Assembly: GCA_018907035.1 (NCBI GenBank)
Contig: JACCIC010000165.1
Span: 806,001 to 870,000, forward strand
DNA: 64,000 bases
Reading direction: 5' to 3'
From: Sycobia sp. Sy_11
Lineage: Eukaryota > Arthropoda > Insecta > Hymenoptera > Epichrysomallidae
A program made the translations under genes and the position numbers. This document shows, piece by piece, positions 2,478 to 64,000 of this stretch. Numbering within the stretch: position 1 is the first letter of the stretch; each line of letters begins with the position of its first letter. The notes below the pieces were generated by a model that saw only the letters and a list, made by a program, of their open reading frames with translations, was not told where the DNA came from and searched no databases.

Positions 2478-3660
2478 TTAGCCTTTTTTGAGAGAGCCTC
2501 GCGAAAAGTCGGACAGGCGCCGGAACCGGCAACGTGCCGGCGTCCCTCCGATTTCGCTTCACCTTTACAGAAAAAGCATTCGGGTTCTGCGGTGCAAGAC
2601 GCGACCTTGTGTTCTCTCTGTCCGCAACGATAACAACAGGCGCTACGATCAGGGCCTTTACAGCTATGACTCCGTGGCCATATCCTAGGCACCTGTAGCG
2701 CCTCGTCATTATTTCGCGGCGGCGCGAAAACCCGATCTTCAGCAGCCGCGCGGCAACAACCTCCTCCAGCACTACGATGACAGCACGCTGTGCCGCAGTG
2801 TTGGTTTTGGTCACTCTGACCTGCAGCTCGCCACAATAATCGGGCAGTTTACTTTTGAGGGCCTCCACACCTCATCCTCCGCCACGCAGCAGTCCAGGTC
2901 TCTAACCTCTAGACTTCCTCTAGGGGTCAGTTCCCTGACAAAGCCGCTCTGGCCTGTTGCTTCCTTGAGCACTTCAGCGAGTGCCTTCCGACCTTCGGGT
3001 TTGGTATGTCTGAGTTCAATCAGCACCTCACCCGATTTGGTTTTCCGGACGGTCCTCACATCCGCGCCCAAGTCCTCCGGTTTGACCGCTCTGATGGATC
3101 TCATAGGATCGTAGGATTTCCCCTGCGCTGGTTTGATGGCGATCGCATCGAGCCTTGGCCTTTTTTTTTATTTCTGTGATTATTATTATTTTTTTTTTTT
3201 GGATGCTTAGGTTATTCCTCAGAATTCTGCTCACTTTGCTTCTTCTTATTGTTCTTTTTTTTTTTGTTTTTACTTCTTGCCACCCCTCATTTTGTCCTCT
3301 TGTTCTCCCCTTTTTTTTCTCCTTAGTAAGGGAGATATCCGGGGGACTTGATGCCGGTCTCTTCGGGGTTATCTCTTCTTTCTTCTGCCTCGTTGTTGGG
3401 AGGAGGCTCACCGGTACCCTCTTCCCTTGTATTTTATGCTGAAGAGCATCTACGAGCTCCTCAGCTTTTGGGAGGCCATCCTTGATGTCTTTTTTAATGT
3501 TTGGTTGGCTCTTCATTGCCTTGATCATGTCCTTGAGCAGCCGAGCAAGTTGGAGAATAATCTCCAGTTCACTCGTCCGCTCAACAGACTTAATCCCGGC
3601 CTCAGCCGGCTGTCGCTCCCCCACCCCAAGGTAACTCTTTTGTTGCTTTTGGCAATCCAT
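2384..3660 (-). pseudogene. R1-clade-like LINE ORF1 (gag-like, CCHC zinc knuckles), frameshifted
   Basis: Upstream of and slightly overlapping ORF2, this is the nucleic-acid-binding ORF1 of the same LINE, now split into four overlapping minus frames (3660-3028, 3104-2811, 2868-2449, 2836-2384). The N-terminal part is Lys/Glu-rich (about 3040-3660). The middle part (RSIRAVKPEDLGADVRTVRK, LRHTKPEGRKALAEVL) is typical of the RNA-binding middle region of R1/TRAS-type gag. The C-terminal part has Cys/His clusters (HSCKGPDRSACCYRCG, HKVASC, ECFFCKGE) that are CCHC knuckles spread over two frames. At least three frameshifts break it. The order gag then endonuclease-RT on one strand supports one original element. 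The Asp/Lys-rich start could begin further upstream. Confidence 0.8.
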
Positions 3661-9246: not shown

Positions 9247-9431
9247 AAATTAACCTGTCAAATTAATAAATATTTTTTCATTGGTCTTACAGTCCAATCA
9301 AATCAATCGAAAACAATACATAACAATATCAATATATATCTACATTAACATTAATACATCAATACGCAAAAATTATAAAAATAAAAATTAAATTAAAAAT
9401 TATAATGACAGTCAGACTGTCTTTGTATACA

Positions 9432-9471
9432 GTGCCTGATGAGGAGCCGTAGCGAGCTCAAAACGTTGGAC
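9432..9471 (+). ncRNA. Hammerhead ribozyme motif, inactivated copy
   Basis: CTGATGA core, helix II with GAGC/GCTC arms, then AAAACGTTGGAC. The conserved GAA 3' of helix II reads AAA, so G12 (the general base) is changed, and the 5' strand of helix I is GTGC instead of GTCC. It is almost certainly inactive. It is homologous to the intact copies at 36459-36498 and 62609-62648. Confidence 0.8.
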
Positions 9472-9486
9472 TGGATCTTCAATTAG

Positions 9487-9556
9487 GTAAGGGTGTTGGG
9501 GACAGTCAGATTGCACTTTACTAACAAAATGTTTTCAGCTAATATTTTATTTTCAG
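9487..9556 (+). other. Intron-like segment of PLE pseudo-LTR (70 nt)
   Basis: AG|GTAAGG donor, TTTACTAAC branch-site match, and TTTTATTTTCAG acceptor, placed directly after the hammerhead motif. The same arrangement at 72 nt occurs in every better-preserved copy of the family in this window. Splicing itself cannot be seen here. Confidence 0.55.
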
Positions 9557-9790
9557 ATTAGTTTACGGGGGTGACTGTATACAAGGACAATATATAATTT
9601 TTAATTTAATTTTTATTTTTATTATTTTTGTGTATTGATGTATTAATGTTAATGTACATATGTATTGATATTGTTACGTATTGTTTTCGATTAATTTGAT
9701 TGGATTGTAAGACCAATGAAAAAATATTTATTAATTTGTATATTAGCAGTGGACAAAAGTATAATTAAATTATCTTAAATTAACCTTTCA

Positions 9791-29497: not shown

Positions 29498-30800
29498 TCA
29501 TACTAATTTATAAAGACAAAACGTATTTTTGTGTGTGTACACGATAAACAAAAAAACTACACTGAACCGATTACTCTAAAATTTGAAATATAAAATTAAT
29601 AAATATTTTTATCGGTTTTACAGTCTATAATATAATATAGTAGCTAAAAGAATGACAGTCAGACGTCCTTGTTTATGTTCACCCCCGTACAATCTGCAAT
29701 AAAACTTAATACTACAATAAATTATATTAAAAATTAAAAATAAAATTAATAATAAAATAAAATCATAAATAAAATAAAATAAAAATAATAAATAAAATAA
29801 AATAAAAATAATTAAGTAATATTCTATGTTCGTAAAGGACAAGCTGACTGTCCCCACCACCTTAAATTTAGAATCACCTTGTTAGATTCTTCGAACCGCT
29901 ATGGTTCATTTTCAGGAAATTGAAAAACTGAGCATGCTTCTTTATATATCCCATCCCTCTCTAAATTTACATTTACACTCTAAATTTATTAGTATAACAT
30001 TTATAGGACCCCCCTTTTCTTAACTTACATGCGAAATACAAATTTTATATACCTTGTTTTAAAATATTTACATTTTTAAATTCGAGAGAATGTAATAAGT
30101 TTAAATTATGTTAACTAACTTAACTCGAGCTTCGTTCTTGAAAATGAACTTTAGCGGTTCCAATCGTCGGACACTAAGGTAATTCTAAATTTAAGGTGGT
30201 GGGGGCTGTCAGGTTGTCCTTTACTAATATAGAATAATACTTTTGTTATTTTTATTTTATTTTATTTATTATTATATTTTTATTTTATTATTAATTTTAT
30301 TTTTAATTTTTATTATAATTTATTGTAGTAATAAGATTTATTTCAGATTCTACGGGGGTGAATAGAAACAAGGACAGTCTGACTGTCATTATTTTAGCTA
30401 ATATATTATATTATAGACTGTAAGACCGATAAAAATATTTATTAATTTAATTCAGAACATATAATATAGATTCTATATGATCTTGAGAAGGACAGAGACT
30501 ATGTTTTTTATTGAAATTTATATTACTTTGAATAATAAATTAAGTTAACTGTCTTAGCAGTCAGTTTCACGAGGGGCAGTAAGTTGCGTCTTGAATCAGA
30601 AATATGAACACACACTAGTCCGCTGAAAGCATTAATACCAGGCCAGGTCAGTTGAATGGTCATATCCAATTTTGGGAGTCGTATCTTAAAGAAGGTGTGA
30701 CGTTAGTCGGTATTACCTTTTTTATTCTTCAGGTTAATCTGACTACTCTCACACCTTATGAATTCTTGATTTTTATCAATTTTATTTTTTCTTATCGCTG

Positions 30801-31144: not shown

Positions 31145-31990
31145 TTCGAGTTCGAGCGGTAAAAAAAGATGTCCAAGTGTCTCGAGACTACGTTTATAGA
31201 GTATCATGTTCGGAATATAGAATATGTCTCCGGACGACTGCTATAGAGAGTTTCGTGTTGGGAATGTAGAATACGACTTCCGGGTATCCCAGGACGACTT
31301 TTACTGGAAGTGTACGTGTTCAAATGATAGAAAATGAATCTCTTTATAGAAGTCTCTTTAACACTCCCCGTAGAAGTCGTTCCTGATATCGTATTCGAAC
31401 GTCCCAACATGAATCTCCCCATAGAAGTCGTCTCGACATACATGGACATCATATTCTACCGTCCGAACACGAAATTCCTCGTGGAAGTCGTCCCATCATA
31501 CCTGGACATCGTCTTCTACCGTCCGAACCCGAAATTCCCCGTGGAAGTAGTCCCGTCATACCTGGACATTGTTTTCTACTAACTAAACACGGTACTCCCC
31601 GTAGAAGTCGTTCCAAAACACCTGGGAATCGCATTCTATCATCCAAACACGAAACTCCCCGAATAAGTTGTCCCGACGTACCTAAACATCGTTTCCTACC
31701 AACTAAATAAAATAAAAAATAGTCCCAGTAGAAGTCGTCCCGAGAAAGCTAGCATCTCTTCCGAACGACTAAACACAATACTCCCCGTAGAAGTCGTTCG
31801 GAAAGACCTAGATATAGTATTTAACCGTCCCAACACGGATATTCTCATGGAAGTTGATTTCCTCATACTTGGACGTCGTTTTCTATCAACTAAATCCAAT
31901 ATTCCCCGTAGAAATCACCCAGAGACACCTAGAGATGGCATTCTATTATTCAAATACACAACTGCCTATAGAAATCGTATTTAAAATGTA
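31145..31990. repeat. 60-bp minisatellite with an orientation switch
   Basis: About 14 units of 60 bp. From about 31340 to 31990 the plus strand reads variants of GAAGTCGTCCCATCATACCT then GGACATCGT.TTCTACCGTC then CGAAC; because 60 is divisible by 3 one frame stays open and gives a 20-residue repeat (EVVPSYLDIVFYRPNPKFPV). From about 31145 to 31335 the units lie in the opposite orientation. The open frame is most likely a by-product of unit length, since the array sits in a non-coding element and some units contain stops. Confidence 0.85.
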
Positions 31991-35518: not shown

Positions 35519-35623
35519 AATTACTATATTCAAAACAATTGAATTGTACTTTTGTCGACTGCCCATATACAAATTAATAAATATTTTTTTATTGGTCTTA
35601 CAGTCCAATCAATTCAATCCAAA

Positions 35624-35656
<33 letters not shown>

Positions 35657-35894
35657 AAAAATAAAAATAAAAAAAAAAAGAAAAAATAAAAAAACATAAA
35701 TAAATAAAAATAAAATAATAATTAAAAATAATAATTAAATTAAAAATTAAATTAAAATTATAATGACAGTCAGACTGTCCTTGTTTACATTCACCCCCGT
35801 AGACTAATCCGAAAATAAAATATTAGCTGAAAAAATTCTTTGTTAGTAAAGTGCAGTCTGACTGTCCCCAACACCCTTACCTAATTGAAGACTT

Positions 35895-35934
35895 GTCAAA
35901 CGTTTCGAGCTCGCTATGGCTCCTCATCAGGGAC
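35895..35934 (-). ncRNA. Hammerhead ribozyme motif (helix I mismatch)
   Basis: Minus strand: GTCC-CTGATGA-helix II-GAA-ACGT-T-TGAC. The core is intact; helix I position 1.1 is T instead of G, giving one mismatch against GTCC. Possibly weakened. Confidence 0.8.
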
Positions 35935-35947
35935 TTAGGAGTTAGGA

Positions 35948-35988
35948 GTCCCTGATGAGGAGCCGTAGCGAGCTCGAAACGTTGGGAC
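35948..35988 (+). ncRNA. Hammerhead ribozyme motif (1-nt insertion in helix I)
   Basis: GTCC-CTGATGA, helix II, GAA-ACGT-T then GGGAC instead of GGAC. The extra G would bulge from helix I. It lies 13 bp from the oppositely oriented copy. Confidence 0.82.
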
Positions 35989-36100
35989 AAGTCTTCAATT
36001 AGGTAAGGGTGTTGGGGACAGTCAGACTGCACTTTACTAATTAATAAATATTTTTTTTTTTTATTGGTCTTACAGTCCAATCAATTTCAACCAAAAATAA

Positions 36101-36131
<31 letters not shown>

Positions 36132-36404
36132 TAAAATAAAAATAAAAACTAAAAAATAAAAAATAAAAATAACAATAAAAAATAAAAAATAAGAAATACA
36201 AATAATAAATAATAAAAATAAAAAATAAAAATTAAAAATAAAAATTAAATTAAAAATTAAATTAAAATGATAATGACAGTCAGACTGTCCTTGTTTATAT
36301 TCACCCCCGTAGACTAATCTGAAAATAAAATATTAGCTGAAAAAATTCTTTGTTAGTAAAGTGCAGTCTGACTGTCCCCAACACCCTTACCTAATTGAAG
36401 ACTT

Positions 36405-36444
36405 GTCCAACGTTTCGAGCTCGCTACGGCTCCTCATCAGGGAC
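36405..36444 (-). ncRNA. Type I hammerhead ribozyme, intact core
   Basis: Minus strand: helix I GTCC/GGAC, CTGATGA, helix II with GAGC/GCTC arms and one extra G, GAA, ACGT (helix III of two pairs in a monomer, or a 4-bp duplex in a dimer), T at the cleavage position. All invariant core bases are present. Confidence 0.88.
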
Positions 36445-36458
36445 TGTAGGGGTCACCA

Positions 36459-36498
36459 GTCCCTGATGAGGAGCCGTAGCGAGCTCGAAACGTTGGAC
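36459..36498 (+). ncRNA. Type I hammerhead ribozyme, intact core
   Basis: Mirror copy of 36405-36444, separated by 14 bp. Predicted cleavage follows T36494. Confidence 0.88.
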
Positions 36499-36512
36499 AA
36501 GTCTTCAATTAG

Positions 36513-36584
36513 GTAAGGGTGTTGGGGACAGTCAGACTGCACTTTACTAACAAAGAATTTTTTCAGCTAATATTTTATTTTCAG
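36513..36584 (+). other. Intron-like segment of PLE pseudo-LTR (72 nt)
   Basis: AG|GTAAGG donor, TTTACTAAC branch-site match, TTTTATTTTCAG|AT acceptor; mirrored on the minus strand at 36319-36390. Confidence 0.6.
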
Positions 36585-36771
36585 ATTAGTCTACGGGGGT
36601 GAATATAAACAAGGACAGTCTGACTGTCATTATCATTTTAATTTAATTTTTAATTTAATTTTTATTTTTAATTTTTATTTTTTATTTTTATTATTTATTA
36701 TTTGTATTTCTTATTTTTTATTTTTTATTGTTATTTTTATTTTTTATTTTTTAGTTTTTATTTTTATTTTA

Positions 36772-36802
<31 letters not shown>

Positions 36803-37121
36803 TTATTTTTGGTTGAAATTGATTGGACTGTAAGACCAATAAAAAAATATTTATTAATTTGTATATGGGCAGTCGACAGAAGTACAATTCAATTGCACTT
36901 TACTAACAAAGAATTTTTTCAGCTAATATTTTATTTTCAGATTAGTCTACAGGGGTGAATGTAAACAAGGACAGTCTGACTGTCATTATAATTTTAATTT
37001 AATTTTTAATTTAATATTTATTTTTAATTTCTATTTTATTTTTATTTTTATTTTATTTTTGGATTGAATTGATTGGACTGTAAGACCAATAAAACAATAT
37101 TTATTAATTACTATATTCAAA

Positions 37122-48726: not shown

Positions 48727-49088
48727 TTTGACTCGCCTAATTATATCAGAAAATTAAAAATAAAAATAAAATGAAAATAATAATAAAATAAAAATAAAAA
48801 TAAAAATACAATAATAAGTAAATAAAAATATCAAGAATAATAAAAGTACTTATTCCATGTTAGTAAAGGACAACCTGACTGCCCCCACCACCTTAAATTT
48901 AGGATCACCTTCTTGTCCGACGTTTCGTACCACTACGGTTCATCCTCAGCAACTAAACTAAAATGAAAAACACAGCATGCTACTTTATATACCCAATCTC
49001 CACTCTAAATTTATTAGTATAACATTCAGAGGACTCCCCCCTTTTTTCTTCAACTTAAATGCGAAATTCAAATTCTACATTAATAAGT
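48727..49088 (-). mobile_element. PLE pseudo-LTR, B subfamily (3' of a decayed PLE)
   Basis: Minus-strand order: hammerhead-like motif (48915-48953), GGTGATCC donor-like site, GGGGGCAGTCAGGTTGTCC, TTTACTAAC, then an A/T-rich tract. It lies directly downstream of a decayed PLE coding remnant on the same strand, as expected for a 3' pLTR. Confidence 0.75.
48915..48953 (-). ncRNA. Hammerhead ribozyme-like motif, B subfamily
   Basis: Minus strand: GTTG-CTGAGGA-helix II (ACC/GGT)-GAA-ACGT-C-GGAC. The core is conserved (position 7 is variable in hammerheads) and the cleavage-site base is C, the usual one. Helix I has one G-G mismatch and one G-U pair. It is independent evidence that the motif is a family feature, since helix II differs from the other subfamily. 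Confidence 0.7.
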
Positions 49089-49492
49089 GTTAGGGAGTTG
49101 TAGGGGCATTATCAGGATTATTAACCAAAGAACACAAACATTTATTAATTATAATTTAGGTATATTCAGACTATAAAAAATTACAATAATTCAATATAAT
49201 AATACAAAATGAATTCTCTCTCTCTCTCTCTCTCTTATACGTCACACAAATCTCACAAATCTGCGCACACGTGTCACGATGTTCATCTGACCGATGCCAA
49301 ACCAAATCTGACGCACTCTGTCGATCCGCTCATCGCCTCGTTCTGCCCTTAATCATCTGTACCTGTACCAACTTGTATAATTACCTAAATTCCCTGTGCC
49401 GTCTGCGCGCAGACACTCACTCAATATATATCGCATTACGGTACTTTCCGAGTATTCATACATACAGATCCTGTCGCAACTTGTCTCTAACA
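49089..49492. mobile_element. Solo LTR (404 bp) with TAAG target duplication
   Basis: Starts TGTTAGGGAG and ends TCTCTAACA, giving TG..CA termini with a 6-bp inverted end (TGTTAG/CTAACA), and is flanked by TAAG at 49085-49088 and 49493-49496. Contains a (TC)n run (49213-49236). No coding sequence. A 4-bp duplication suits a gypsy-type LTR element that lost its interior by LTR recombination. It interrupts the PLE between its endonuclease and its pLTR. Confidence 0.72.
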
Positions 49493-50225
49493 TAAGTAAT
49501 GATAAGTGTTGTCCAATTTACTCGACTTTAATATTGAATTTACATTATTGGGATTCTTCAAAACATGAATATTTTCAAAAGTTTCTCTTTTATATTTATT
49601 CTTAATACTATGTTTTAAAATATTTACATTTTCAAAATCGAAAGAATGTAACAAGTTTAAACTATGTTCTTTTAGCCCGGATCTACTATTCATGCTTCGT
49701 AAGATATATTGATGTTCATATATTCTTTGTTTTATGTACCTTCTCGTTTGTCCAATATAATACTTGTCACAATCTTCACAATTTATTTTATATACTATTC
49801 CTGTTTTCAAACCTTTATCATCCTTATCTTTACAATTATTAAATAGCTTTATTATTGTTTCTAAAGTAAACTTGAATCATATGTTTTTTAAATGCACTTC
49901 TAACTCTTTCGGATAATCATTTTACATATGGTACTACCACGATTTTATTATTATGTCCCTCTTTTCCATATTATGTTCTCTAGTGTTATTAGAAATTTGA
50001 TCCACTCTCTCTGCAATCATTTTATCCACAAAGTCTATTGGATAAGCATTGTTAATGAATATCTCCAACTAATTTTAAATGATCTTTTCTAAAATCTCTG
50101 TGTGATAACTTGATTGCTTTGTCGATGACTCCTTTACAGAACCTATCTTGTTTCCGAATATATTTTATAAGTTTTTCTTTATAGTCTTTGTTATTTATTT
50201 TTTGAACATTGCATTTTCAAAAGAA
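49493..50225 (-). pseudogene. PLE remnant: GIY-YIG endonuclease and decayed RT thumb
   Basis: Open stretch 49810-49487 begins MKTGIVYKINCEDCDKYYIG, the start of the Penelope GIY-YIG endonuclease, with the CxxC pair, IKQRIYEHQYILRS, GLKEHSLNLLHSFDFENVNI and a Glu-containing FENIHV block. It is similar along its length to residues 338-440 of the 56-63 kb element but clearly diverged. From 49810 to about 50225 the RT C-terminal region is recognisable only in pieces. RT motifs are absent, so it is a 5'-truncated, inactive copy. Confidence 0.85.
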
Positions 50226-54385: not shown

Positions 54386-54739
54386 AATGCACAAATACGC
54401 AGTCGGCACGGAAGAATTCTCAACTCTACGGATTATGGTCAGTAGAGCATGATTGAATCAAAATGGCACTATCCTGCGCTTTGCTCAATTTCATGACAGA
54501 AGAGCGCGCTGGGTCAGTCTAGAAATAAGATCGATATGTGTGAAAGAAGGAGTGTAGATCCTGTTTTCCCCAGGAGCTATATCAACGCAATGGGTAAATA
54601 AAAGGATTCGATTTACGGACTAGGATAGCAAATATTGAAAGGTGACAGTGCTAAAATTAACCGATCTTGCTCACACACTTTGTTGTGGCAGAGGTCAGAA
54701 TTATTATCGTTGGAATTAAAAACATGCAAAAAACTGCAG

Positions 54740-56235
54740 CATTATGGATGGAATTAAAAACATCCACTATTTCGTCTACACAACTTTCTGGTACAATTGT
54801 AAAGATGTCATCAATATATCTTTTATAGATAATTGGTTCAAAATTCAATTTATTTAATGCAATACTTTCTAATTTTTCCATCATCAAATTAGCAATTACC
54901 GGTGATAAAGGTGATCCCGTTCGACAACCATATCTTTGTACATAAAAAATAAATAATTTAGATATATTTCTAAGAATATATTTTCTCACTTGGGTGATTC
55001 CACAGATTAAACGATGTACAACATCGATACATTTCTCTCATCGACGATTAAGTTATCAGAGAGTTAATTTTCTTTCCTCGACATGTACAAATTATAACTT
55101 GTAATTTTTTGAAGAATAAATATAAATCATTCGGCGAAAATAAATACTATTTGTAGGTTTCGCCCTTAGTTACCTGCTGAGCTCGTCAGTAGGACTACAG
55201 GTAACCAATTCCTAGACGTACGATGCTTGCTAAAATCGATGACAATTTATAATATGAAGCCGATAAACTTATCTATGGGAATTATCTGTGGAATCACCCA
55301 AGTGAGAAAATATATTCTTAGAAATATATCTAAATTATTTTATTTAATTCCACAAAATATAATAGCGCACCAAATATTAATTTATTTGTTGCATAAAAAT
55401 TATTTTGAAAAGAAAAAATTATGTTATTAAAACTAAATTTATTGCTTTAATGAATCATCTTTTGATAATTTTGTGTGTATGTTTATTTCTGATCATTTCT
55501 CTTCTATAATTTATAAGTAAATCTAATGGTATATTTGTAAATAAAGATACTACATTTAATAAAATCATTTTATAATTATTCGGAATATTAATATCATTAA
55601 CTGTTTCATAAAAACTCCAGCTATCTTTATCATAAAAATTGGTTTCCCAACGATCTTAATTAATATATTTGATACAATTTTGCAAAATGTATATTCGAAA
55701 ATTAATTAATGATTGGAAATCCGATAACATTTGGCTATTGTGTCATTCTCACATTTTAAAAGTTTAGAAGTAATGCCGTTGATATAAGATTTATTTTTCC
55801 ATTCTTTTATTAATTCTTTCTATTTATTTTGTACCCTATTCATATGAGGATTCAAAATTTTCTTGTAAATTGTGTTATTCTCCAACATCATTGTACTTGT
55901 ATTAGTATATTCTTTTTTTATCAGATGCTACTTTTACATTTCCTTTATCTGTATTTTGGATTATAATAATTATTTCTCTTTTAAGAAATTCTTGGCTGTT
56001 TTGTATTCATATATCATATTACTATGTAAATAATTTTGAAACGTATTTTCTGTTTTACAATTATTAATAACCTTCACTAATGAGTTCTACATTACTTAAA
56101 ACATTACTTAAAACATTACTACTCTAAAGTTCAACGTTGTTTCTTAATATCATTATTGCTGCTAATAATACTATTTTATACTTCAGCGATGACTTCTCTA
56201 ATAGGGAAATTGTTATTTAAATAAGATATTCCAAA
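54740..56235 (-). pseudogene. Old, decayed PLE reverse transcriptase (host of two later insertions)
   Basis: Minus strand. At 54970-54740: FYVQRYGCRTGSPLSPVIAN, EPIIYKRYIDDIFTIVPESC (the YIDD catalytic motif) and DVFNSIH. After a 433-bp insertion, the upstream part resumes at 55384-56235: FSFQNNFY, NVVSLFTNIPLDLL near 55540, and N-terminal text ending in GILYLNNNFPIREVIAEV at 56170-56235. The remainder continues on the far side of the big palindrome (62987-63050: NEVANILSEGVKFGI). The order matches the intact copy, but stops and frameshifts are frequent, so it is much older. Confidence 0.85.
54951..55383. mobile_element. Small insertion with 56-bp inverted repeats inside the old PLE
   Basis: It splits the RT coding region of the old PLE. 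A CATAAAAAT-like direct repeat of about 9 bp flanks it (54941-54950 and 55384-55392). Inside, 54952-55007 and 55284-55339 are a perfect or near-perfect inverted pair of 56 bp, followed on the right by about 44 bp that is not repeated. A GTTACCTG/CAGGTAAC stem lies near 55175-55207. No ORF. Class unknown; MITE-like. Confidence 0.65.
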
Positions 56236-56578
56236 ACAATTGAATTGTACTTCTGTCGACTGCCCATATACAAATTAATAAATATTTTTTTATTGGTCTT
56301 ACAGTCCAATCAATTCCATCCAAAAATAAAATAAAATAAAAATAAAAAATAAAAATAATAATAAAAAATAAAAAATAAGAAATAAAAATAAAAAATAATA
56401 AAACTAAAATAAAAAAATAAAAATAATAATAAAAAATAAAAAATAAGAAATAAAAATAAAAAATAATAAAAATAAAATAAAAAAATAAAAATTAAAAATA
56501 AAAATTAAATTAAAAATTAAATTAAAATTATAATGACAGCCAGACTGTCTTTGTTTATATTCACCCCCGTAGACTAAT

Positions 56579-56650
56579 CTGAAAATAAAATATTAGCTGA
56601 AAAAATTCTTTGTTGGTAAAGTGCAGTCTGACTGTCCCCAACACCCTTAC
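56579..56650 (-). other. Intron-like segment of the left outer pLTR (72 nt)
   Basis: On the minus strand: GTAAGG donor, TTTACCAAC (branch site with one change from TACTAAC), TTTTATTTTCAG acceptor. Confidence 0.55.
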
Positions 56651-56664
56651 CTAATTGAAGACTT

Positions 56665-56704
56665 GTCCAACGTTTCGAGCTCGCTACGGCTCCTCATCAG
56701 GGAC
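56665..56704 (-). ncRNA. Type I hammerhead ribozyme, intact core (left outer pLTR)
   Basis: Exact mirror of 62609-62648. Helix I GTCC/GGAC, CTGATGA, helix II, GAA, ACGT, T at the cleavage position. It lies about 100 bp downstream of the minus-strand coding region. Confidence 0.88.
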
Positions 56705-56805
56705 TAATCTAAACCTTATATTCTAATCTATATATACCCATCCCCACCACCAAATTTCGTAAATTAAATATAAATTCCCCCTCTACACAAATTGTCCAAA
56801 ACCAA

Positions 56806-58134
56806 TCAATTGAATAAGGAATGATAAACACTGTCCAATCTACCAGACTCTAACATTAAATTCACATTATTTCGATTCTTGGAAATGTGAATACTTTCAA
56901 GACTCTCCCGTTTATACTTATTATTAATACCATGTTCCAAAATATCCACATTCACAAAATCAAAAGAATGTAAAAACTTTAAAGAATGCTCTTTTAAACC
57001 AGAAGTAATATGTGAGCTACGTAAACTATATTTATGCTCATAAATTCTCTTTTTTAAATATATACCTGTTTGTCCAATATAGTATTTATCACAATCCATG
57101 CAATTAATCTTGTAAACAACTCCTGACTTTAAGCATAAATCATCCTTATCTTTGCAATTATTAAACAATCTACTTAAATTATTGCGATTTTTAAAGAAAA
57201 TTTGAATGTTATATTTCCGAAAATTTCTTTTTATTCTTTCAGATAATCCTTGAACATATGGTAAGACAATAATTTTGCCTCCGTTAAAATCAATTCCTGC
57301 ACTATGTCTATTTTCGGTATTATAAATGTCAAACAATCTCTCAGCAATCAATCTATTAATAAATTGAATTGGATAGCCATTATTAATAAAAGTTTCTCTT
57401 ACTATCTGTAAATTATTTTGTCTAAAATCTTTATGTGACAATTTAATTGCTCTGTCAATGACACCTTTCAATGCTCCAATTTTTTTTCCGAATTGGTGGT
57501 GTGAATTAAAATCTAAAAACCTACCTGACCAAGTAGGCTTTCTGTACCAATTAAGTTTTACCTTATTATTACTACATCTAATTACATTAATGTCCAAAAA
57601 ACTTAACTGACTATTTACTTCAACCTCCCTTGTAAATTTAATTCTGTCATGTACAGAATTGAAAACATCCACCATTTCATCCACAAAAACTTCTGGAACA
57701 ATTGTAAAGATATCATCAACATATCTCTTAAATATCATTGGTTCAAAAAGCAATTTTGACAAGGCTATACTTTCCAACTTTTCCATAACTAAATTAGCTA
57801 TAACCGGTGACAAAGGCGACCCCATTGGACATCCATATTTTTGTTCATAAAATTTATTATCAAATGAAAAAATTGTGTTATTAAAAACCAAATTAATTGC
57901 TTTAATAAATTCATTCATTGTCAATTTTGTATGCAAATTAATTTCATTCCACTTTTCCTGTATAATATCATTTAACAACTCTAAAGGTACATTTGTAAAC
58001 AAAGATACTACATCCAATGAAATCATCTTGTAGTTTTTCGGAATAACAATATCTTTCATTTCATTGTAAAAACACCAACTATCCTTAATGTAAGAACTAG
58101 TTCTTCCAACTATCTTAACCAATATATTAGACAA
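56806..58134 (-). CDS. PLE reverse transcriptase plus GIY-YIG endonuclease, left copy
   Basis: 442 codons, identical in translation to 61179-62507. The RT palm starts with MISLDVVSLFTNVP (residues 37-50, Asp41 catalytic), then YGCPMGSPLSPVIANLVMEK (100-119), FKRYVDDIFTIVP (135-147, YVDD catalytic pair) and the thumb block WYRKPTWSGRFLDFN. The C-terminus is a GIY-YIG nuclease: VVYKINCMDCDKYYIGQT (339-356) with a CxxC, KRIYEH (362-367) and Glu413. PLE proteins nick DNA with this nuclease and copy the RNA. RT motif 2 (YGLPKIHK..IGFPTYNIARFLSNIL) lies just upstream of the ATG in the same frame, so the true ORF was longer and is cut by a frameshift from the upstream part. Confidence 0.9.
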   Translation of the reverse strand: MSNILVKIVGRTSSYIKDSWCFYNEMKDIVIPKNYKMISLDVVSLFTNVPLELLNDIIQEKWNEINLHTKLTMNEFIKAINLVFNNTIFSFDNKFYEQKYGCPMGSPLSPVIANLVMEKLESIALSKLLFEPMIFKRYVDDIFTIVPEVFVDEMVDVFNSVHDRIKFTREVEVNSQLSFLDINVIRCSNNKVKLNWYRKPTWSGRFLDFNSHHQFGKKIGALKGVIDRAIKLSHKDFRQNNLQIVRETFINNGYPIQFINRLIAERLFDIYNTENRHSAGIDFNGGKIIVLPYVQGLSERIKRNFRKYNIQIFFKNRNNLSRLFNNCKDKDDLCLKSGVVYKINCMDCDKYYIGQTGIYLKKRIYEHKYSLRSSHITSGLKEHSLKFLHSFDFVNVDILEHGINNKYKRESLESIHISKNRNNVNLMLESGRLDSVYHSLFN

Positions 58135-58253
58135 AAATCTAGCAATATTATAAGTTGGGAAACCTATGGAAGATATTATTATTCTAAATGTCAGATTTTC
58201 TTTATGAATCTTGGGAAGCCCATAACATTTTGCTACAGTTCCATTTTCACATT

Positions 58254-59183
58254 TTAAATCTTATATGTAGTATCATTTATATATTCATTTCTTTTCCAAT
58301 TATTTAATAATTCTTTCAAATTATTTTGCAGCTTAATGATATGTGGATTACCAATCTTCAAATAAGTACTATCATCATTTAATATATTATTTATACAATT
58401 TATGTAATCAATTTTATTGGAAGCTACAGTTACATTACCTTTGTCGGCCTTTTGGAAGATTATATTAGGGTTATTTTTCAAAAAATTCTTCGCGGTAATT
58501 AAATTATGTATAAAATTACTATTTAAAAAATTATCAAATTTATTTTCTCTTTTAAAATTACTAATGACATTAACCAAAGATGCCCTACATTCCTTTTTTA
58601 CTTCATCATTTAAACAAAAAAGATTACTTTCAACCTCCGCGATGATTTCTTTGATCGGGAGATTATTTTTACAATATAATATTCCATGTTTGGCACCTTT
58701 AGACATGATGTTTATTACTTCATTTGGTATCTCCTTGTCAGTTAGATTCTTAAACCAATTTTTATTGTTTGCATTGTTAAATTGATAGCTTTGAAATTGT
58801 TTTTTATTTCTTAAACATTCAAATTTCCTTTTTAATGTTTGTCTATTAATATATTTTGTCTTAATAAAATGTTTGCTTTGACCAAGAAAAAATTCATGTA
58901 ATTCATTTCTTTCTATATTTTGATATAAATAATGTTTAATCTTTAATAAATATCTATTTAAGGAATGAATCTGAATATGTAAATCTCTAATTTCTAAATT
59001 AAGTAATTTATTTTTGAAAAAGAAAATATTCTTCTTTAGATCATAACAAACATTATTACTATAAACCTGCAAAAAATATTCATCATGAAATCTATTATTA
59101 ATGTGTACCGGAAATATATTTGATTTCTTGCATCTAATAAGGAATGTAAGTTTTTCTTTAAGAATTACAACTTCTAAATTCAT
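58254..59183 (-). CDS. PLE N-terminal domain, left copy
   Basis: 309 codons, identical in translation to 60130-61059. Lys/Asn-rich N-terminal region with the PLE-typical FQKADKGNVTVASNK block at about residues 243-257. It ends at a TAA one frame away from the RT ORF. The same frameshift exists in the right copy. About 60 bp of recognisable RT motif text bridges the two ORFs in the other frame, so an intact ancestor had one continuous protein of roughly 790 residues. Confidence 0.85.
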   Translation of the reverse strand: MNLEVVILKEKLTFLIRCKKSNIFPVHINNRFHDEYFLQVYSNNVCYDLKKNIFFFKNKLLNLEIRDLHIQIHSLNRYLLKIKHYLYQNIERNELHEFFLGQSKHFIKTKYINRQTLKRKFECLRNKKQFQSYQFNNANNKNWFKNLTDKEIPNEVINIMSKGAKHGILYCKNNLPIKEIIAEVESNLFCLNDEVKKECRASLVNVISNFKRENKFDNFLNSNFIHNLITAKNFLKNNPNIIFQKADKGNVTVASNKIDYINCINNILNDDSTYLKIGNPHIIKLQNNLKELLNNWKRNEYINDTTYKI

Positions 59184-59618
59184 TTTAATCCATTTTGAAC
59201 AATAATCTTTAATAGTACTACCATATTTACAATAAATTTCTCTAAAATAAATCAGGACATACCCCCTTAATTTATGTTAAATAGACCTTCTATTTTAAAA
59301 CAATTCAATTGTACTTTTGTCGACTGCCCATATACAAATTAATAAATATTATTTTGGTCTTACAGTCCAATCAATTCCATCCAAAAATAAAATAAAATAA
59401 AAATAAAAATAAAATAAAAATAAAAAATAAAAATAATAATAAAAAATAAAAAATAAGAAATAAAAATAAAATAAAAAAATAAAAATTAAAAATAAAAATT
59501 AAATTAAAAATTAAATTAAAATTATAATGACAGTCAGACTGTCCTTGTTTACATTCACCCCCGTAGACTAATCTGAAAATAAAATATTAGCTGAAAAAAT
59601 TCTTTGTTAGTAAAGTGC

Positions 59619-59694
59619 TCCTTAGGGAGCCGTAGCGAGCTCGAAACGTTGGACAAGTCTTCAATTAGGTAAGGGTGTTGGGGACAGTCAGACT
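59619..59694 (+). other. Unpaired spacer at the palindrome centre
   Basis: 76 bp present only once: the 3' half of a hammerhead motif (59627-59654, lacking the CTGATGA side), then the first part of the intron-like segment. Outside it, both sides mirror each other starting at TTAGTAAAGTG / CACTTTACTAA. The hammerhead cleavage point (after 59650) is 6 nt from the symmetry centre. Confidence 0.85.
59627..59654 (+). ncRNA. Truncated hammerhead ribozyme motif (3' half)
   Basis: Helix II 3' arm, GAAACGTTGGAC retained; CTGATGA replaced by CTTAGGG. It cannot fold as a complete hammerhead. Confidence 0.8.
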
Positions 59695-59740
59695 GCACTT
59701 TACTAACAAAGAATTTTTTCAGCTAATATTTTATTTTCAG
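59669..59740 (+). other. Intron-like segment of the central pLTR (72 nt)
   Basis: GTAAGG donor, TTTACTAAC, TTTTATTTTCAG acceptor; it lies in the leader of the right-hand coding region, about 390 bp upstream of its first ATG. Confidence 0.6.
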
Positions 59741-60129
59741 ATTAGTCTACGGGGGTGAATGTAAACAAGGACAGTCTGACTGTCATTATAATTTTAATTT
59801 AATTTTTAATTTAATTTTTATTTTTAATTTTTATTTTTTTATTTTATTTTTATTTCTTATTTTTTATTTTTTATTATTATTTTTATTTTTTATTTTTATT
59901 TTATTTTTATTTTTATTTTATTTTATTTTTGGATGGAATTGATTGGACTGTAAGACCAAAATAATATTTATTAATTTGTATATGGGCAGTCGACAAAAGT
60001 ACAATTGAATTGTTTTAAAATAGAAGGTCTATTTAACATAAATTAAGGGGGTATGTCCTGATTTATTTTAGAGAAATTTATTGTAAATATGGTAGTACTA
60101 TTAAAGATTATTGTTCAAAATGGATTAAA

Positions 60130-61059
60130 ATGAATTTAGAAGTTGTAATTCTTAAAGAAAAACTTACATTCCTTATTAGATGCAAGAAATCAAATATATT
60201 TCCGGTACACATTAATAATAGATTTCATGATGAATATTTTTTGCAGGTTTATAGTAATAATGTTTGTTATGATCTAAAGAAGAATATTTTCTTTTTCAAA
60301 AATAAATTACTTAATTTAGAAATTAGAGATTTACATATTCAGATTCATTCCTTAAATAGATATTTATTAAAGATTAAACATTATTTATATCAAAATATAG
60401 AAAGAAATGAATTACATGAATTTTTTCTTGGTCAAAGCAAACATTTTATTAAGACAAAATATATTAATAGACAAACATTAAAAAGGAAATTTGAATGTTT
60501 AAGAAATAAAAAACAATTTCAAAGCTATCAATTTAACAATGCAAACAATAAAAATTGGTTTAAGAATCTAACTGACAAGGAGATACCAAATGAAGTAATA
60601 AACATCATGTCTAAAGGTGCCAAACATGGAATATTATATTGTAAAAATAATCTCCCGATCAAAGAAATCATCGCGGAGGTTGAAAGTAATCTTTTTTGTT
60701 TAAATGATGAAGTAAAAAAGGAATGTAGGGCATCTTTGGTTAATGTCATTAGTAATTTTAAAAGAGAAAATAAATTTGATAATTTTTTAAATAGTAATTT
60801 TATACATAATTTAATTACCGCGAAGAATTTTTTGAAAAATAACCCTAATATAATCTTCCAAAAGGCCGACAAAGGTAATGTAACTGTAGCTTCCAATAAA
60901 ATTGATTACATAAATTGTATAAATAATATATTAAATGATGATAGTACTTATTTGAAGATTGGTAATCCACATATCATTAAGCTGCAAAATAATTTGAAAG
61001 AATTATTAAATAATTGGAAAAGAAATGAATATATAAATGATACTACATATAAGATTTAA
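60130..61059 (+). CDS. PLE N-terminal domain, right copy
   Basis: 309 codons starting MNLEVVILKEKLTFLIRCKK, an ATG about 120 bp after the pLTR end. It carries the KADKGNVTVASNK block (about residue 246), part of the N-terminal PLE RT region. The frame closes with TAA at 61057-61059; the following RT text (DLKCENGTVAKCYGLPKIHK) is one base out of frame. No standard slippery heptamer sits in the needed frame, so a simple 1-nt indel is more likely than programmed frameshifting. It is AT-rich in codon use, with Asn and Lys very frequent. Confidence 0.85.
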   Translation: MNLEVVILKEKLTFLIRCKKSNIFPVHINNRFHDEYFLQVYSNNVCYDLKKNIFFFKNKLLNLEIRDLHIQIHSLNRYLLKIKHYLYQNIERNELHEFFLGQSKHFIKTKYINRQTLKRKFECLRNKKQFQSYQFNNANNKNWFKNLTDKEIPNEVINIMSKGAKHGILYCKNNLPIKEIIAEVESNLFCLNDEVKKECRASLVNVISNFKRENKFDNFLNSNFIHNLITAKNFLKNNPNIIFQKADKGNVTVASNKIDYINCINNILNDDSTYLKIGNPHIIKLQNNLKELLNNWKRNEYINDTTYKI

Positions 61060-61178
61060 AATGTGAAAATGGAACTGTAGCAAAATGTTATGGGCTTCCC
61101 AAGATTCATAAAGAAAATCTGACATTTAGAATAATAATATCTTCCATAGGTTTCCCAACTTATAATATTGCTAGATTT

Positions 61179-62507
61179 TTGTCTAATATATTGGTTAAGA
61201 TAGTTGGAAGAACTAGTTCTTACATTAAGGATAGTTGGTGTTTTTACAATGAAATGAAAGATATTGTTATTCCGAAAAACTACAAGATGATTTCATTGGA
61301 TGTAGTATCTTTGTTTACAAATGTACCTTTAGAGTTGTTAAATGATATTATACAGGAAAAGTGGAATGAAATTAATTTGCATACAAAATTGACAATGAAT
61401 GAATTTATTAAAGCAATTAATTTGGTTTTTAATAACACAATTTTTTCATTTGATAATAAATTTTATGAACAAAAATATGGATGTCCAATGGGGTCGCCTT
61501 TGTCACCGGTTATAGCTAATTTAGTTATGGAAAAGTTGGAAAGTATAGCCTTGTCAAAATTGCTTTTTGAACCAATGATATTTAAGAGATATGTTGATGA
61601 TATCTTTACAATTGTTCCAGAAGTTTTTGTGGATGAAATGGTGGATGTTTTCAATTCTGTACATGACAGAATTAAATTTACAAGGGAGGTTGAAGTAAAT
61701 AGTCAGTTAAGTTTTTTGGACATTAATGTAATTAGATGTAGTAATAATAAGGTAAAACTTAATTGGTACAGAAAGCCTACTTGGTCAGGTAGGTTTTTAG
61801 ATTTTAATTCACACCACCAATTCGGAAAAAAAATTGGAGCATTGAAAGGTGTCATTGACAGAGCAATTAAATTGTCACATAAAGATTTTAGACAAAATAA
61901 TTTACAGATAGTAAGAGAAACTTTTATTAATAATGGCTATCCAATTCAATTTATTAATAGATTGATTGCTGAGAGATTGTTTGACATTTATAATACCGAA
62001 AATAGACATAGTGCAGGAATTGATTTTAACGGAGGCAAAATTATTGTCTTACCATATGTTCAAGGATTATCTGAAAGAATAAAAAGAAATTTTCGGAAAT
62101 ATAACATTCAAATTTTCTTTAAAAATCGCAATAATTTAAGTAGATTGTTTAATAATTGCAAAGATAAGGATGATTTATGCTTAAAGTCAGGAGTTGTTTA
62201 CAAGATTAATTGCATGGATTGTGATAAATACTATATTGGACAAACAGGTATATATTTAAAAAAGAGAATTTATGAGCATAAATATAGTTTACGTAGCTCA
62301 CATATTACTTCTGGTTTAAAAGAGCATTCTTTAAAGTTTTTACATTCTTTTGATTTTGTGAATGTGGATATTTTGGAACATGGTATTAATAATAAGTATA
62401 AACGGGAGAGTCTTGAAAGTATTCACATTTCCAAGAATCGAAATAATGTGAATTTAATGTTAGAGTCTGGTAGATTGGACAGTGTTTATCATTCCTTATT
62501 CAATTGA
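61179..62507 (+). CDS. PLE reverse transcriptase plus GIY-YIG endonuclease, right copy
   Basis: Same 442-codon protein as 56806-58134: RT motif with Asp41, YGCPMGSP loop, YVDD at 138-141, thumb, then GIY-YIG endonuclease from residue 338 with CxxC, YYIGQT, KRIYEH and Glu413. The length of the C-terminal nuclease is usual for Penelope. The reading frame in fact opens about 120 bp upstream of the ATG. The 3' end is followed within about 100 bp by the hammerhead of the 3' pLTR. All catalytic residues are present; only the frameshift to the N-terminal part prevents a full product. Confidence 0.92.
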   Translation: MSNILVKIVGRTSSYIKDSWCFYNEMKDIVIPKNYKMISLDVVSLFTNVPLELLNDIIQEKWNEINLHTKLTMNEFIKAINLVFNNTIFSFDNKFYEQKYGCPMGSPLSPVIANLVMEKLESIALSKLLFEPMIFKRYVDDIFTIVPEVFVDEMVDVFNSVHDRIKFTREVEVNSQLSFLDINVIRCSNNKVKLNWYRKPTWSGRFLDFNSHHQFGKKIGALKGVIDRAIKLSHKDFRQNNLQIVRETFINNGYPIQFINRLIAERLFDIYNTENRHSAGIDFNGGKIIVLPYVQGLSERIKRNFRKYNIQIFFKNRNNLSRLFNNCKDKDDLCLKSGVVYKINCMDCDKYYIGQTGIYLKKRIYEHKYSLRSSHITSGLKEHSLKFLHSFDFVNVDILEHGINNKYKRESLESIHISKNRNNVNLMLESGRLDSVYHSLFN

Positions 62508-62608
62508 TTGGTTTTGGACAATTTGTGTAGAGGGGGAATTTATATTTAATTTACGAAATTTGGTGGTGGGGATGGGTATATATAGATTAGAATATAAGGT
62601 TTAGATTA

Positions 62609-62648
62609 GTCCCTGATGAGGAGCCGTAGCGAGCTCGAAACGTTGGAC
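62609..62648 (+). ncRNA. Type I hammerhead ribozyme, intact core (right outer pLTR)
   Basis: GTCC (62609-62612), CTGATGA (62613-62619), helix II with GAGC/GCTC and one extra G, GAA, ACGT, T62644 (cleavage after it), GGAC (62645-62648). All invariant core bases are present. Helix III can form only two pairs in one molecule, so activity may depend on dimers, as known for other minimal hammerheads. Confidence 0.9.
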
Positions 62649-62662
62649 AAGTCTTCAATTAG

Positions 62663-62734
62663 GTAAGGGTGTTGGGGACAGTCAGACTGCACTTTACTAA
62701 CAAAGAATTTTTTCAGCTAATATTTTATTTTCAG
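62663..62734 (+). other. Intron-like segment of the right outer pLTR (72 nt)
   Basis: AG|GTAAGG, TTTACTAAC, TTTTATTTTCAG|AT. A nearer CAG at 62716 is an alternative acceptor (54 nt). Confidence 0.6.
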
Positions 62735-62986
62735 ATTAGTCTACGGGGGTGAATGTAAACAAGGACAATCTGGCTGTCATTATAATTTTAATTTAATTTT
62801 TAATTTAATTTTTATTTTTAATTTTTATGTTTTTATTTTATTTTATTATTTTTTATTTTTATTTCTTATTTTTTATTTTTTATTATTATTTTTATTTTTT
62901 TATTTTATTTTTATTATTTTTATTTTATTTTATTTTTGGATGGAATTGATTGGACTGTAAGACCAATAAAAAAATATTTATTAATT

Positions 62987-63050
62987 TAAGATATTCCAAA
63001 TTTTACACCTTCTGAAAGGATATTCGCAACTTCATTGGGATGGTAATATT
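62987..63050 (-). pseudogene. Remainder of the old PLE beyond the palindrome
   Basis: Minus-strand translation NEVANILSEGVKFGI continues into GILYLNNNFPIREVIAEV on the far side (56235-56170) once one copy of the 14-bp duplication is removed. Confidence 0.75.
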
Positions 63051-63452: not shown

Positions 63453-64000
63453 GTTGTCAAAGATCTTCCTAATTTGTCTTATGAATTTCGCGGCTTATAC
63501 AAAGCGCTACAGAGCTCGTATCTGGCAATACTATACATCATTTGAAAGGTAATGACATAACGTACAAAACGACGCTATGCATAATTAGTTTGGATATTGC
63601 GTTCAAAAGTTATAGACGTGTAAATATTAGTTAGATCACTAACGCCGAAATTCGCGCTATTTTAAAGTTTGCCTTCGTCAAAGGCAAATCCGTTAGAGAA
63701 ACATTCCGTGAGATTAATGGTGTATTGGTGGATGACACGCTATCACTTCGAACCGCAGAGGAATGTTTTCGACGATTCAGAGCCGGTGAAAACGACACCA
63801 TGGATAAGCCAGCCGGCGGAAAATCTGTGACGACGAATACCGATCAAATCATGGAATTTATCCAGTTAGACCGGCATGTGGCATCTCGTGACATCGCCCA
63901 GGAGATGAAAGTTAGTCACCAGGCCATTTGAAACCATCTGCAGAAGGCTGGATACAATAAAAAGCTTGATGCTTGGGTGCCGAATGATTTGACGCAAAAA
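63449..64000 (+). pseudogene. Mariner transposase, 5' part, cut by the window end
   Basis: 5' terminus TTAGGTTGTCAAAGATCTTC after TA. The coding frame begins near 63631 with TNAEIRAILKFAFVKGKSVR, but the usual ATG reads ATC. Then VDDTLSLRTAEECFRRFRAG (helix-turn-helix region), MDKPAGGKSVTTNTDQIMEF, DIAQEMKVSHQAI, an in-frame TGA at 63929, then NHLQKAGYNKKLDAWVPNDL TQK to the edge. Same family as 47179-48160, which preserves the catalytic part. Damaged start and a stop suggest it is inactive. Confidence 0.88.

Follow-up and report, generated by a model that had tools for sequence, protein, structure and literature searches.

Background

Two described systems come closest to the structure considered here. 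In Adineta vaga, the Penelope elements Pen2a and Pen3 carry direct and inverted pseudo-long terminal repeats (pLTRs), a target site duplication (TSD) and partial tandems; the head-to-head arrangement is described as their most frequent one, and an optional 31-bp tail can be present at one of the inverted pLTRs (PMC3846280). The purified enzyme of PAc/Poseidon, from Anolis carolinensis, cleaves and extends both target strands in vitro and is predicted to act as a dimer, and its two adjacent reverse-transcription start sites, which bound the tail, are used without a difference between the strands (PMC11167929). On the integration of Penelope-like elements (PLEs), the in vitro work stops at the first extension, later steps being unvalidated (PMC11167929), and the printed model for inverted copies is self-priming (PMC3846280). 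Here we analyze a palindrome of two PLE units at positions 56236-62986 of a 64,000-nucleotide stretch, hereafter the window, of the genome of the hymenopteran Sycobia sp. Sy_11 (assembly GCA_018907035.1, contig JACCIC010000165.1, positions 806,001 to 870,000; C74:806001-870000 in our labels, in which the C and L designations denote loci of the same genome). The family is young; its many copies are nearly identical and their ends can be read, which lets models of integration make different, countable predictions.

Results and discussion

The boundaries of the insert, exactly 56236-62986, are set by a perfect 14-bp TSD (TAAGATATTCCAAA, at 56222..56235 on the left and 62987..63000 on the right), and within them lie two PLE units with their 3' ends outward. 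The left arm (56236..59618, minus strand), with the order pLTR, open reading frame, pLTR and its 5' end at the centre, begins with a 36-nt segment at its 3' end (56236..56271, minus strand) that we call the tail, a name taken from PMC3846280 and PMC11167929; the right arm (59626..62986, plus strand) has no tail and reaches 69 nt further toward the 5' end than the left one, and a 7-nt filler, TCCTTAG (59619..59625), lies between them. Counted from the no-tail 3' site, the arms measure 3,345 nt (left) and 3,414 nt (right), and both presumably come close to the 5' end of the full-length RNA. The inverted repeat spans 3,242 nt (56377-59618 and 59695-62936) at 99% complementarity and is free of mismatches over the 3,003 bp beside the centre (56616-59618 in the left arm). 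Alignment of the arms, suggested in an earlier note on this DNA as a way to count their differences, gives six substitutions and gaps of 53 bp and 1 bp, all of them within the outer pLTRs, at family positions 3041-3243; the body is free of differences. Each arm has an N-terminal frame of 340 aa (58254..59276, minus strand, and 60037..61059, plus strand) and a reverse transcriptase (RT)/endonuclease frame of 484 aa (56806..58260, minus strand, stop to stop, and 61053..62507, plus strand). The frames mirror each other exactly, and the 340-aa as well as the 484-aa protein is identical in the two arms. A 1-nt deletion puts the left N-terminal frame out of the RT frame; compared with the 821-aa frame of the family, each arm is one base short. 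The description given in the earlier note, of full-length head-to-head units inserted as one, with mirrored frames, identical RT/endonuclease proteins, a shared frameshift and a 14-bp direct repeat around the whole, is borne out in each of these points, and we agree with it that a mechanism is needed. A match to mir-283 at 59564-59745, below the gathering score, proved to be the palindrome's own hairpin.

Genome assembly is known to be error-prone at long perfect palindromes, and the note had named an assembly fold-back among the possible origins of this one. A fold-back chimera, whether from assembly or library, would mirror its flanks; here the left and right flanks are unrelated to each other and carry the TSD, the arms differ at their outer ends, and among the 24 loci at which ends were examined 19 others are built in this way, and 17 of those are bounded by clear TSDs, which makes an artefact hardly credible. 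The palindrome is real and represents one PLE insertion. We read it as the product of two-ended target-primed reverse transcription followed by joining, with a probability of about 0.62, a figure that leaves later gene conversion between the arms out of account.

Nor is this palindrome an oddity of one locus, since the first DNA search yielded 17 fetched loci besides the window, and 14 of these 18 are head-to-head with the PLE 3' ends outward; the 18 were the best of 5,692 candidates, a selection that may favour long clusters. The remaining four are three single 5'-truncated copies and one direct tandem, and among the 14 are two, L009 and L010, that are cut off by the end of a contig. Throughout, the genome searches scored the best candidates only (18 of 5,692, 88 of 12,788, 40 of 2,929 and 40 of 1,822), so the loci, chosen by score, cover part of the family's copies, and the end class was in some cases assigned by eye; L027-L032, picked for two facing RT hits, and L033-L035, picked for 3'-end pairs, stand outside the frequency count. 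The search for further palindromic PLEs that the note had proposed thus identifies the head-to-head arrangement as the common product of this family and not an isolated event. Insertion of one PLE into another does occur, as at L019 and in a nested palindrome at 36 kb of the window, but the recurrence of the arrangement at those 14 loci and the single TSD round the whole unit render it very improbable that a second, separate insertion landed beside the first in the opposite orientation.

The outer ends show a regularity that is nearly absolute. Exactly one of the two has the tail in 26 of the 27 two-ended inverted-pair insertions with both outer ends readable, which under independent choice at one half has a one-sided chance of 2e-7. 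The count comprises all 20 resolved head-to-head pairs among the 24 loci examined, both resolved loci (C42 and C28) of six further ones fetched, L047 (right end and TSD read by eye), and three of the four other inverted pLTR pairs in the window. Left out of it were L028, the right end of which is deleted, L009 and L010 at contig edges, four loci where one side continues inside a tandem array (C130, C187, C347 and C15:179.8 kb), the single copies L011, L023 and L024, and the direct tandem L014/L015. TSDs of 10-17 bp are present at 21 of the 24 loci, 18 of these being 13-15 bp long with microhomology to the element counted in; they are ambiguous at L020 and L033, where A/T repeats intervene, and there is none at L028. 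A comparison of the target sequences at tail and no-tail nicks (18 sites) revealed little beyond A/T richness.

Both outer ends correspond to the 3' end of a PLE, each at a different fixed site, and hence resemble two independent starts of reverse transcription; since an arm copied from the other arm would carry the same end, two-ended target-primed reverse transcription is favoured. This bears directly on self-priming, another candidate of the earlier note, in which antisense RNA or the first cDNA would fold back at the 5' end of the element and copy itself, the resulting hairpin then being inserted; self-priming on an antisense template is the published proposal of Arkhipova et al. 2013 (PMC3846280). 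Such a process would explain the head-to-head orientation, the near-symmetric centres seen in 8 of 22 pairs and the identity of the arms, but it should end the second arm like the first, in contrast to the single tail of 26 of 27 insertions, and it fits poorly both with arm lengths that differ by more than 100 nt in 14 of the 22 pairs and with the different alleles carried by the two arms of L021. We therefore consider it unlikely.

Under two-ended priming, attention turns to the inner ends. No more than 100 nt separates the 5' end of one arm from that of the other in 8 of 22 pairs (69 nt in the window, 22 at L009, 11 at L013, 30 at L016, 83 at L020, 4 at L027, 93 at L028 and 52 at L032), against a permutation mean of 1.17 pairs, and none of 20,000 permutations gave a number as high; in the first-search subset, 5 of 13 pairs are coupled in this way versus 0.75 expected (p 0.0007). 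Arm lengths were entered by hand, taking 3,026, a value read by eye, as the unit length; the right arm of L031, being the search query, has a minimum length; L009 and L028 were included and L010 was not, and L025 takes part in this test while standing outside the variant comparison below. In both pLTR-only palindromes at 35.5-37.1 kb of the window, the inner ends of both arms all fall at AGTCCCTGATGAGG, which we read as the probable 5' end of the RNA. The 22 inner joins consist of 10 microhomologies of 1-6 nt, two blunt joins and 10 fillers of 3-60 nt, one of them a run of A, and overall they look like end joining. The fillers of L016, L028 and L032 repeat sequence adjoining the join, a feature that we take to resemble polymerase-theta-type joining. 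Two further loci deserve mention: at L031:4217-4276 the inner join of the palindrome is filled by 60 A residues, and at L018 the arms end at one element position yet differ by one unit length. A convoy of two enzymes on one RNA, in which the no-tail arm would always be the longer, was considered and is unsupported, as the order of arm lengths is mixed.

Shared variants speak to the templates. With 27 loci compared, 11 of 21 pairs, among them that of the window, have locus-private variants common to both arms. This suggests a single source copy for each insertion, or else conversion. The frameshift of the window belongs to this evidence in a different manner from that supposed in the earlier note. 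The deletion at family position 1396, together with variants at 1326 and 1344, is found only in the window and in L047 (C74:609 kb, about 250 kb away and more diverged) among the compared loci, 26 of which, counting the window, cover these sites. The frameshift is thus older than the window insertion and by itself no sign of copying from arm to arm; presumably a defective lineage was copied with an enzyme supplied by other copies. Of the claim that the arms derive one from the other or both from the same template, the single source remains plausible, but the frameshift cited for it predates the insertion and the outer pLTRs are not identical. Three candidate readings were discarded on the way: an origin of the frameshift after insertion, with conversion carrying it to the other arm, ruled out by L047; a one-base insertion at 389 as a marker restricted to the window and L047, which is present in L014 and L020 as well; and L033 as a case of two templates, the arms of which share most subfamily alleles.

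From the outer ends, TSD, tail asymmetry, coupling of inner ends, joins and shared variants, which can be read directly in the DNA, we infer the following order of events. The enzyme of the element would make a staggered cut, in keeping with TSDs of mostly 13-15 bp, and the 3' end of each target strand would then prime antisense cDNA on PLE RNA. The tail site would serve one strand, and the no-tail site, some 36-40 nt upstream, the other. Separate priming sites for each strand would make every outer end a PLE 3' end and the two ends of an insertion different. The cDNAs would extend toward the 5' end of the RNA, often halting near the same place, and host end joining would link their free 3' ends, leaving microhomology or a short, sometimes templated, filler. 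The use of both target strands as primers is deduced from the structure of the ends and has a biochemical precedent (PMC11167929); the joining enzyme, and whether one RNA was used twice or two RNAs of one source, belong to the same reconstruction. We would extend it, tentatively and at somewhat less than even odds, to PLE integration in general, as a concerted and inherently two-ended process in which a dimeric enzyme engages both strands of one staggered break, each with a start site reserved for it, on RNA of a single origin (it may be one molecule read twice) with host end joining to follow; the palindrome would then be the normal product and single copies its failed halves.

The identity of the window arms calls for a separate account. 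Their body contains 10 locus-private substitutions (0.38%; 8 once L047 is considered, so that the rate is 0.3-0.4%), none of them specific to one arm in 2,630 bp. Seven other segments have private rates of 0.33-0.39% (L020_R, both arms of L021, L025, both arms of L026, and L034_L), and where arm-specific changes among the private ones could be counted they amount to 7 of 8 in each arm of L021 and to 3 of 6 and 4 of 7 in L026, as against none in the window. Outside the A/T tract, the window arms differ at four sites (3041, 3098, 3106 and 3111). At three of these, one window arm has a state absent from 26 other loci, and 3098 is polymorphic in the family. Gene conversion between the arms after insertion, stopping about 0.3 kb short of the outer ends and erasing all differences inside that limit, would simply account for this pattern; the earlier note had listed conversion as well, and with the arm differences confined to the outer 0.3 kb we give it about even odds. 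Alternatively, the arms may have been identical from the start, made from one RNA twice or from two RNAs of one source with no conversion, and their outer pLTRs would differ through different 3' templates, a switch within the pLTR or faster change there. This variant of the two-ended explanation, which does not exclude it, is in accord with a frameshift and two nearby variants that predate the insertion (L047), with the otherwise unseen variants that both arms share in 11 of 21 pairs, with the polymorphism of site 3098 elsewhere in the family and with a window-private rate no higher than the range of other copies. It would, however, turn the absence of any difference over the 2,630-bp body into a coincidence, and of the four sites outside the A/T tract at which the arms differ, three have a state confined to one arm, as expected of post-insertion mutations; we regard it as possible but doubtful.

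Several observations weigh against two-ended priming or against parts of the scheme. At the outer ends, an old inverted pLTR pair of a diverged relative (29590..30451 in the window) has a tail at neither end and no clear TSD, the sole exception to the pattern, and tail sequence stands on both sides at C130 and C15:179.8 kb, which were set aside as internal because the left side runs on into the next unit; moreover, as the start sites of PAc are described as lacking a strand difference in vitro (PMC11167929), the strict tail asymmetry finds no explanation there. No coupling of the inner ends is seen in the other 14 of the 22 pairs, where they differ by 170 to 3,026 nt, neither the tail nor the no-tail arm is consistently the longer, and four of the ten microhomologies are 1 nt long, which is within chance. 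No shared private variant is found in 10 of 21 pairs, for the most part owing to a family too uniform to be informative. L021, both arms of which have the minor allele at 3098 and at 3127, calls for two templates or a template switch, since at six subfamily sites from 2073 to 2918 its arms disagree, the minor allele being in the right arm at five and in the left arm at one. As to conversion, a single locus supports it, L021 and L033 having kept their arm differences, and the locus-private rate spans 0 to 1.82% over 24 segments, the 0.38% of the window agreeing with some old copies and not with others, a range wide enough to leave the comparison of rates suggestive only.

The element family and its surroundings

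The assignment to PLEs follows from several features. The RVT_1 match of the window copy scores 39.2 bits against a cut-off of 29.6, pLTRs are arranged in tandem or partial tandem units, and an optional tail of 30-40 nt is present at a 3' end. The C-terminal GIY-YIG endonuclease match of the window copy falls slightly short of the cut-off (21.1 bits against 22.6), and none is reported at E 0.01 for the 821-aa relative; PF01541 is precomputed for some homologues. Sequence search at E 0.01 returned no homologous solved structure. No Rfam match to a hammerhead ribozyme was found in the pLTR of the window element, its 5' end included, but we take a motif visible there, CTGATGAG followed by a CGAAAC-like segment, to resemble a hammerhead core. 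Hammerhead ribozymes are reported for other PLEs (PMC11167929), and we do not regard one as indispensable in a PLE. A sub-threshold type III hammerhead match lies at 55152-55222, inside the fragments of another, diverged PLE (54657-56097, minus strand, 69-81% identity) that directly adjoin the palindrome.

Homologues are numerous (3,682 at E 0.001 among 7,982 candidates scored), and the hosts named among the 120 listed are ants, wasps, sawflies and beetles, in keeping with an insect host. Within the genome, the protein search scored the best 88 of 12,788 first-look candidates, and 67 of these 88, by hand count, share one identical score; many are in an open 821-aa frame, and identical scores and open frames together indicate a young and numerous family. 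Measured against L011, a young reference copy, each arm of the window element shows about 50 substitutions; in addition, a base is missing at family position 1396, and the first ATG of the family frame is replaced by CTG.

Further PLE-derived pairs occur in the window, the coordinates of the following three having been read by eye. A second palindrome of the same family, consisting of pLTRs only (35535..37105), has a tail on the left and none on the right and is bounded by a TSD-like AATTACTATATTCAAA (35519-35534 and 37106-37121). It is split by a third, nested in its right arm (36041..36894) with no tail on the left and a tail on the right, flanked by the TSD GCACTTTACTAA (36029-36040 and 36895-36906); the arms of the third differ by one substitution plus gaps, and it is the younger of this pair of palindromes (35519-37121). 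A fourth, older head-to-head pLTR pair (9260..9776), again without a tail on the left and with one on the right, has a 13-bp TSD with one mismatch. Elsewhere in the window are a diverged PLE fragment at 49492-50159 (minus strand, 72% identity) with remnants of A/T tracts at 48750-48962, an open frame with an HTH_48 domain, as in Mos1-type mariner transposases, just right of the palindrome (63635-63931), and a diverged, possibly coding tandem array at 31388-31707 with a 60-bp period, a multiple of three, and a 120-bp higher order.

Comparison with known systems

The head-to-head structure and the optional single tail are already known (PMC3846280), and the Sycobia family resembles Pen2a and Pen3 of Adineta vaga in both, as well as in its direct and inverted pLTRs, TSD and partial tandems. 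It departs from that report in that the arms here are often long or full length and comparable at some twenty loci, and in that two-ended priming is inferred where self-priming was proposed there. With PAc it shares two start sites that bound the tail; unlike PAc as described in vitro (PMC11167929), one site is used per end in each insertion. The words "palindrom" and "head-to-head" are absent from the main text of the PAc study (PMC11167929), and searches of an open-access library, subscription papers being outside its scope, brought up no proposal of two-ended priming for PLEs. What is added here is the near-absolute one-tail rule, the coupling of inner ends, the joins and the sharing of variants. 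The first of these places a direct constraint on any mechanism of PLE integration, and since long perfect palindromes can destabilize genomes, a retroelement that makes them is relevant to rearrangement. In LINE-1 twin priming, too, the second target strand primes on the element RNA, giving an inversion with a joined internal break, and one of the outer ends is internal to the element. The palindrome described here differs from that product in having both outer ends at the two PLE 3' sites.

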